Source of the DNA: Candidatus Moraniibacteriota bacterium
GTDB taxonomy: Bacteria > Patescibacteriota > Minisyncoccia > Moranbacterales > UBA9337
NCBI GenBank assembly: GCA_028695135.1
Contig: JAQVJM010000006.1
Location: 1 to 35,721 of the forward strand
DNA length: 35,721 nucleotides
Direction: 5' to 3'
The notes beneath the pieces were generated by a model. That model had not been told where the DNA came from, did no database searches, and saw only the letters and a list, made by a program, of their open reading frames with translations. Within the stretch, counting starts at the first letter, position 1; each line of letters begins with the position of its first letter. The position numbers and the translations under genes were made by a program. Below, piece after piece: positions 15,202-16,378 of the stretch.

Positions 15202-15543
15202 ATGAAAATAGTAAGAGATAAAATTTCAGTCGAAGAGCTCAAGGAAATGTCGGAAAGGATGTTCGGCAATCTGGTCAAAGCGGTCGTAGATGTTAAGAAG
15301 GAAATTATGGCCGTGGACGCTGAACTGCATGCCGACCAGGAAGCTTTTCTTTTAGAAGAGGGATCCGAGCAAAAAGATTTGTGGGGAATAAACTTGTATC
15401 CGGAAATGAAAGGCGATGATTTTATCGAATTTGATTCGATGATAAATCTGCGTCCGTCGCAGGATAACAGGAGCCGAGGCGTAGATGATTCCGAACTGCA
15501 GAAAAGGATAATTGAAATAGTCTATAAATTAGTGGAAAGATAA
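15202..15543 (+). CDS. DUF5674 family protein
   Basis: A 113-residue soluble protein with the DUF5674 pattern: an N-terminal KISVEELKEMSERMFGNLVK, VKAVVDVKKEIMAVDAELHAD, then the strand LWGINLYPEM and MINLRPSQDNRSRGVDD near the C-terminus. Function is unknown; the fold looks alpha-beta. It is widespread as a single small gene in Patescibacteria and some other bacteria. The stop is followed after 5 bases by the next small gene, so the pair is probably co-transcribed. No Shine-Dalgarno, only a T-run, precedes the ATG. Confidence 0.85.
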   Translation: MKIVRDKISVEELKEMSERMFGNLVKAVVDVKKEIMAVDAELHADQEAFLLEEGSEQKDLWGINLYPEMKGDDFIEFDSMINLRPSQDNRSRGVDDSELQKRIIEIVYKLVER

Positions 15544-15927: not shown

Positions 15928-16011
15928 TGAGCCATGAGCGAGATTCGAAATCGCGGCCTACGAATGGAGTTTATCCGCTTGCCTCGGCGAGCGGAAATGC
16001 TTTACCCCGCC
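15928..16011 (-). pseudogene. Degenerate tRNA-like 3' half with inserted hairpin element
   Basis: Read on the - strand, these 84 bases align without gaps to the + strand copy at 16286-16369. Both start GGCGGGG, share a 30-base identical stretch and end TGGCTCA. The - copy ends like a tRNA 3' half: variable AGGCC, T-arm with loop TTCGAAT, and acceptor strand TCATGGC. It has no matching GCCATGA 5' half nearby, its anticodon stem does not pair well, and the T-stem closing pair is a T-C mismatch. I treat it as a tRNA fragment carried by or next to a repeat, not a working tRNA. Confidence 0.6.
15964..15993 (-). repeat. 30-base hairpin element, inverted copy
   Basis: Identical over 30 bases to the + copy at 16304-16333. 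It begins CGCTCGCCGAGGC and ends AAACTCCAT, with a hairpin core CGCTcGCCgaGGCaAGCG. Confidence 0.85.
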
Positions 16012-16040
16012 AGCCCTGAGACTATAATCGGACTTGCTAT

Positions 16041-16074
16041 CAATTTGTCAAAATTTTAATTTTGCGACAAATTG
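16041..16074. repeat. A/T-rich hairpin before the tRNA locus
   Basis: CAATTTGTC / GACAAATTG (9 bp) encloses AAAATT-tt-AATTTT, with a GC bulge. It is not followed by a long T-run. It could be a bidirectional transcription barrier or part of the repeat-rich tRNA region. Confidence 0.5.
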
Positions 16075-16185
16075 GAATCTGCCTCTGGCGGAAACCCTAT
16101 TTTTTCGTCTAGACTAATTTTTATTTTTATGCATAATTAAATAGAGCTGAGCGAATCAGCCACCTTAGCTCAGTTGGCAGACCTT

Positions 16186-16291
16186 CCCGCCATTGCCTAA
16201 GCCCACGTAGCTCAGTTGGTAGAGCGACGCACTCGTAACGCGTAGGTCATCGGTTCAATCCCGGTCGTGGGCTCAGGCTTAGGCAGGCGGG
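16186..16291. repeat. Inverted repeat bounding the nested tRNA
   Basis: The left arm CCCGCC-att-GCCTAAGCC (16186-16203) and the right arm GGCTTAGGC-a-GGCGGG (16276-16291) are inverse complements apart from the short central spacers. They enclose the intact tRNA-Thr, and the left arm shares its last three bases with the tRNA 5' end. Confidence 0.85.
16201..16273 (+). tRNA. tRNA-Thr (anticodon CGT)
   Basis: A complete 73-base cloverleaf. The acceptor is GCCCACG / CGTGGGC, the D-arm GCTC-AGTTGGTA-GAGC, and the anticodon loop CTCGTAA gives CGU, reading ACG. The variable loop is AGGTC and the T-arm ATCGG-TTCAATC-CCGGT. Discriminator T; CCA is not encoded. The last pair of the anticodon stem is an A-C mismatch (ACGCA with CGCGT), the only flaw. 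The gene lies wholly inside the D-arm of a second tRNA-Thr sequence and is bounded by inverted repeats. Confidence 0.9.
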
Positions 16292-16303
16292 GCGACGCAC
16301 TTA

Positions 16304-16333
16304 CGCTCGCCGAGGCAAGCGGATAAACTCCAT
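16304..16333 (+). repeat. 30-base hairpin element in the anticodon loop
   Basis: Same 30 bases as at 15964-15993 but on the + strand. It lies in the loop of the outer tRNA-Thr, and its last T is the first base of the 3' anticodon-stem strand. Confidence 0.85.
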
Positions 16334-16378
16334 GCGTAGGTCATCGGTTCAATTCCGATAGGTGGCTCATAATTTTTT

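Follow-up and report, generated by a model that had tools for sequence, protein, structure and literature searches.

Two short blocks of DNA face each other on opposite strands of this Candidatus Moraniibacteriota contig, each ending like a tRNA gene and each interrupted by the same hairpin, which raises the question of how one hairpin came to occupy two tRNA-like sequences. The preliminary description of the window (the whole stretch analysed, 35,721 nucleotides) took the blocks for two different tRNA genes, each entered at the anticodon loop by a palindromic element specific to tRNA loops. Its alignment is sound: the reverse complement of 15928-16011 matches 16286-16369 without a gap at 63 of 84 positions, by far the best 84-base inverted match in the window, and the longest identical run is indeed the 30-base core (CGCTCGCCGAGGCAAGCGGATAAACTCCAT). 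With up to three mismatches allowed, this 30-mer occurs at two sites in the 911-kb assembly, both of them here. Both blocks also finish, as described, with a T-arm and the 3' strand of an acceptor stem. A plain inverted duplication, raised at the outset as a possible refutation, is ruled out because the runner-up 84-base inverted match has only 50 identities and because identity is weak or lost outside the block, except in a short adjoining stretch.

Each block represents the 3' part of a broken tRNA-Thr gene (hereafter a shell) whose anticodon loop is occupied by a hairpin ending in GGATAAACTCCA. The 84-base extent holds for the match itself, but the + strand block belongs to a longer object, beginning at 16159, of which it forms the 3' part. 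This larger feature, overlooked in the first reading, is an intact tRNA-Thr gene nested in the D-arm of the + strand shell. The parts of the locus are as follows.

15928..16011, - strand: degenerate tRNA shell, 3' part (GGCGGGG arm, hairpin-bearing anticodon arm, T-arm, acceptor 3' strand), aligned with the + strand copy as above
15966..15997, - strand: hairpin element TTTCCGCTCGCCGAGGCAAGCGGATAAACTCC; 29.2 bits, E 1.6e-6 with an element covariance model whose rows exclude this sequence itself and include a shortened relative of it
16159..16181, + strand: 5' part of the outer tRNA-Thr(CGT), GCCACCTTAGCTCAGTTGGCAGA; 23/23 identical to an intact gene (locus L010) in genome G003
16182..16200, + strand: left arm CCTTCCCGCCATTGCCTAA; base-paired to the right arm in the fold prediction
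16201..16274, + strand: inner intact tRNA-Thr(CGT); called by ARAGORN and by Rfam (RF00005, 64.4 bits)
16275..16291, + strand: right arm AGGCTTAGGCAGGCGGG; from the predicted pairing and recurrence in relatives
16292..16301, + strand: end of the outer D-stem and 5' strand of the anticodon stem, GCGACGCACT; 10/10 identical to L010
16302..16333, + strand: hairpin element TACGCTCGCCGAGGCAAGCGGATAAACTCCAT, in place of CGTAAC in L010 (anticodon lost); exact motif match at 16321-16332
16334..16369, + strand: 3' part of the outer tRNA (3' strand of the anticodon stem, T-arm, acceptor AGGTGGC, TCA); 36/36 identical to L010

Taken jointly, the three outer pieces, the last of which reads GCGTAGG...AGGTGGCTCA up to 16369, correspond at 69 of 69 bases to the intact tRNA-Thr(CGT) of G003, a member of the same family, which has nothing at the position of the D-arm cassette. 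The outer acceptor strand GCCACCT (from 16159) pairs 7/7 with AGGTGGC, and both are distinct from the inner pair GCCCACG/CGTGGGC. On these comparisons the + strand locus is very probably an invaded tRNA-Thr(CGT) gene, with its D-arm split by a cassette of GC-rich inverted arms around a foreign-like intact tRNA-Thr(CGT) and its anticodon loop replaced by a hairpin. The palindromic element thus lies in the anticodon loop as originally proposed, but not by simple insertion: 32 bases stand in place of CGTAAC, no clear target-site duplication was found at the junctions compared with L010, and such replacement of loop bases counts against plain insertion.

The genomic setting of the two loci is similar. 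In G003 the intact gene lies between porB and rubrerythrin genes (names assigned from translations read by eye), and in the window por genes lie upstream and a rubrerythrin-like gene downstream of the tRNA locus; extra genes are interposed in this common neighbourhood, and the relative orientation of the tRNA varies among genomes. A DUF5674 protein (Pfam PF18924) is encoded at 15202-15543 of the window, between porB and the tRNA locus.

The inner gene forms a cloverleaf with an anticodon and is the sole tRNA seen at the locus by ARAGORN or Rfam; searches of the assembly and of stretches extracted from it gave no further Thr(CGT) gene, and the two additional Thr genes detected are GGT and TGT. 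The outer tRNA is nearest to family members (100% and 94% identity). For the inner tRNA the closest gene, at 96% identity, comes from another family (G013), and no collected family member exceeds 89%, although these identities span only about 75 bases and so have limited resolution of native from foreign. Shells and nesting are overlooked by both programs: neither calls a tRNA in the - strand shell at 15928..16011, the outer copy in the window gives no cloverleaf with anticodon even after its D-arm flanks are joined, and in an Rfam covariance search of the shells and element the inner tRNA alone passed, with no other credible match.

The proposal of two different target genes was not borne out. 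The + shell is itself a tRNA-Thr(CGT). With its GGCGGGG arm and the element, the - block looks more like an outer shell of the same locus type than an independent target. Since the hairpin of the two shells is absent elsewhere in the genome, one shell probably copied the other via conversion or template switching.

Nesting of this kind recurs among relatives, in which a tRNA-Thr lies in the D-arm of a tRNA-Thr shell between arms of the type CCTGCCCGCC...GCCTAA, which precede the nested tRNAs, and GGCNTAGGCAGGCGGGGC. More nests were recovered by a right-arm search of 384 genomes of the class and a left-arm search of 380 genomes of the phylum, with inner tRNAs including Thr(TGT), Thr(GGT), Arg and Lys, and with up to three levels (double nest L144, triple nest L335). 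The same architecture, with different sequences, in many independent genomes leaves an assembly error in the metagenome bin with a negligible probability, despite the fragmentation of the source assembly into 37 contigs. Viral carriage of the nested cassette was considered and rejected: the left-arm 16-mer is present in 48 IMG/VR contigs, 0 of which have an adjoining tRNA call.

A more serious alternative is that tandem tRNA-Thr copies decayed via deletion and replication template switching, the palindromes arising by slippage with nothing mobile involved. Shells do often adjoin intact tRNAs of the same kind, the replaced loop bases are not flanked by duplications, and one hairpin is common to both facing copies, all in keeping with decay. 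Against it, the two acceptor halves of an outer gene are complementary to one another but not to the inner gene. Of 15 candidate loci, 6 show such pairing at 7/7 positions, compared with a mean of 1.46 under permutation, and 3 of 5000 permutations reached this count; pairing of the inner 5' half with the outer 3' half occurs in 0 of 15. The list of loci was drawn up by regular expression and includes a few false candidates, which lower rather than raise the score. Different classes share this D-arm site and these arm sequences, and L010 provides an exact intact counterpart; both points likewise argue against decay, which we regard as unlikely.

The outer gene could also be a working two-piece tRNA, its halves held by the arms after removal of the inner tRNA. 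The arms pair in the predicted fold and some outer copies keep an anticodon, being called as tRNA-Thr by ARAGORN once their flanks are joined (L144, L285, L335); however, the outer copy in the window has lost its anticodon and several joined outers (L288, L289, L314) give no tRNA call, so that this alternative is hardly credible. The tRNA-Thr calls regained in L144, L285 and L335 also count in favour of an outer gene split by invasion.

Several related arrangements were observed. The source genome (G000) has at least one further nest, an intact tRNA-Arg(TCG) flanked by the arms GTCTGCCCGCCAGTGCCAGT and AGGCATCGGCAGAC and set within a degenerate tRNA-Leu-like shell (C35:1-700, L352), plus other decorated shells. 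At C27:47250-47750 (L351) degenerate tRNA shells, bearing a T-loop palindrome and the arm AGGCATAGGCAGGCGGG, come after a tRNA-Arg(GCG). At C14:11000-12400 (L353) an intact tRNA-Ile(GAT) gene is followed downstream by a repeat of its 3' half whose anticodon loop contains CTCGCCGCGGCGAG, and this repeat may mark an integrated element. In G330 (L284/L349) a single outer tRNA-Thr holds one tRNA-Thr(TGT) in its D-arm and another in its anticodon loop, where the arms are CCCCGCACCA and TGGTGCGGGG. The literature searched, which included few subscription journals, gave no earlier account of a tRNA gene nested in another.

What, then, is the hairpin? The motif GGATAAACTCCA has 45 exact matches in 131 genomes of the order, and the reversed control has single matches in 4 genomes; more than half of the matches first inspected lack a hairpin and resemble chance, and many genomes of the order are without the motif. 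When a hairpin is required, copies are found in tRNA shells, at the anticodon loop, the variable region or the D-arm (there often with a GGATAAAGTCC tail), with hosts also including tRNA-Arg, Val, Ser, Phe and Ala, and in REP-like palindromes (GTCATTCCCGC..GCGGGAATCC and similar). The 130 distinct copies comprise 34 placed beside or inside tRNA-like shells by tRNA similarity, 15 placed in REP-like palindromes by their left flank, and 81 unclassified, among which are many coding chance matches. The 34 divide into 26 in the same orientation as the tRNA and 8 in the opposite one, the weakest similarity scores being doubtful. A tRNA-specific invader, as originally suggested, is ruled out by the copies in REPs and elsewhere; its lack of a protein of its own was upheld, no protein-coding partner lying beside the element. 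A flanking stem (score >=5) closes 29% of non-coding copies, compared with 7-8% in controls.

A GTDB scan returned element matches in many phyla among the matches listed, some of them coding; covariance-model matches below about 26 bits were left unused, being mostly hairpins without the tail. Hairpin-pattern matches in Serratia, in Paenibacillus and in one Patescibacteria reading frame containing AEKADKLREA were discarded, as they look like coding chance matches. In G203 (L215, 1479-1688) a 93-base tandem repeat has as its unit an acceptor stem plus a D-arm carrying the hairpin with the GGATAAAGTCC tail.

The GGATAAACTCC tail is conserved in unrelated hosts and phyla, a further point against decay of tandem copies. 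The hairpin stem covaries and the tail is invariant, in a small hand-picked alignment that is biased towards covariation. Together with recurrence of the motif next to tRNA-Thr(CGT) in several families, this might suggest a conserved tRNA-like non-coding RNA, retained next to tRNA-Thr(CGT), in which a hairpin extends the anticodon arm and an internal loop is conserved. Such an RNA is very unlikely because the element is also found inverted relative to the tRNA and in the varied tRNA hosts and REPs listed above; in addition, many genomes of the order lack it, and truncation differs from shell to shell. We infer instead that the hairpin, a short dispersed palindrome, belongs to a dispersed REP-like family occupying the loops of other hairpins, namely tRNA arms and CGTC-type REPs.

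Among known systems, the CGTC-tagged REP super-family (Di Nocera et al. 2013, PMC3733652), which includes Neisseria dRS3 and Rickettsia RPE-4/RPE-6, is similar in consisting of short palindromes dispersed in several phyla; a dedicated transposase was reported absent, and GTAG-type repeats were noted inside other palindromes. The host palindromes GTCATTCC..GGAATCCA fit this description, with a CGTC/TGTC start, an AT-first stem and a CCA tail (PMC3733652). The present element, in contrast, combines a hairpin with a GGATAAACTCC tail and lies inside such REPs and inside tRNA shells; it is not assigned to the super-family because the unpaired GTAG or CGTC tag is absent from the hairpin foot, where flanks and tail read TTCC..GGATAAACTCC. 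No paper on the tail motif was found in the same literature.

REP/RAYT (TnpA_REP) systems are likewise small hairpins with a conserved single-stranded tag, for which a single-stranded DNA HUH transposase is proposed as the spreading agent; occupation of hairpin loops is not described in the available portions of these sources (PMC8266576, PMC2817692), and our element has no GTAG tag, nor was a RAYT linked to it noticed. The insertion sequences IS1397, IS621 and ISPpu9 insert specifically in REP palindromes but are full insertion sequences with transposases (PMC1525189), whereas the present element has about 22-32 bases; the terminal inverted repeats and target-site duplication of an insertion-sequence-derived MITE did not emerge from the junction comparison with L010. 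Mitochondrial double-hairpin and repetitive hairpin-forming elements are also tiny, invade genes and intergenic DNA, and have conserved stems and variable loops, but they are organellar, and tRNA-in-tRNA nesting is unmentioned in the part of the account available (PMC2800124). Archaeal split and intron-bearing tRNA genes, interrupted in their loops, are spliced by protein machinery according to the available parts of PMC3218864 and PMC4090602. The present locus differs in being bacterial, in having as its insert a tRNA gene with arms, and in the outer copy being usually broken.

Taking these lines together, we consider it rather probable that a tRNA-Thr(CGT) gene was invaded, that the inner copy took over, and that the outer copy is decaying while hairpins spread into hairpin loops. 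The inner tRNA would be expressed from the promoter of the outer gene (promoter-like matches at the locus are consensus matches only) and would be cut free of its transcript, as any pre-tRNA is, by RNase P and RNase Z. Because it would have taken over the function, the outer copy would be left free to decay as a hairpin-rich landing place. Cassettes and hairpins might spread as folded single-stranded DNA that enters the loops of other hairpins, driven by a single-stranded DNA enzyme (most obviously one of the HUH/Y1 type) or by template switching at hairpins; this single-stranded route is conceivable but questionable. No clear association with Y1 transposases emerged: Y1_Tnp is present in 67 of 123 genomes of the order and does not obviously track the element, and the source genome has only a short weak match, on another contig.

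More broadly, and tentatively, Patescibacteria may carry self-targeting tRNA cassettes. Each would consist of a functional tRNA between GC-rich inverted arms and would insert into a resident tRNA, mostly one of its own kind, at the D-arm or the anticodon loop. As the incoming tRNA would provide the function of the resident one, even an essential gene could be entered without harm, and repeated invasion would give rise to Russian-doll tRNA loci. If this is true, foreign copies can replace essential tRNA genes without loss of function, and the nested loci would provide a readable record of nested insertions. The loci would also allow the entry of folded single-stranded DNA into the loops of other hairpins, a question likewise raised by REP-type repeats, to be tested concretely.
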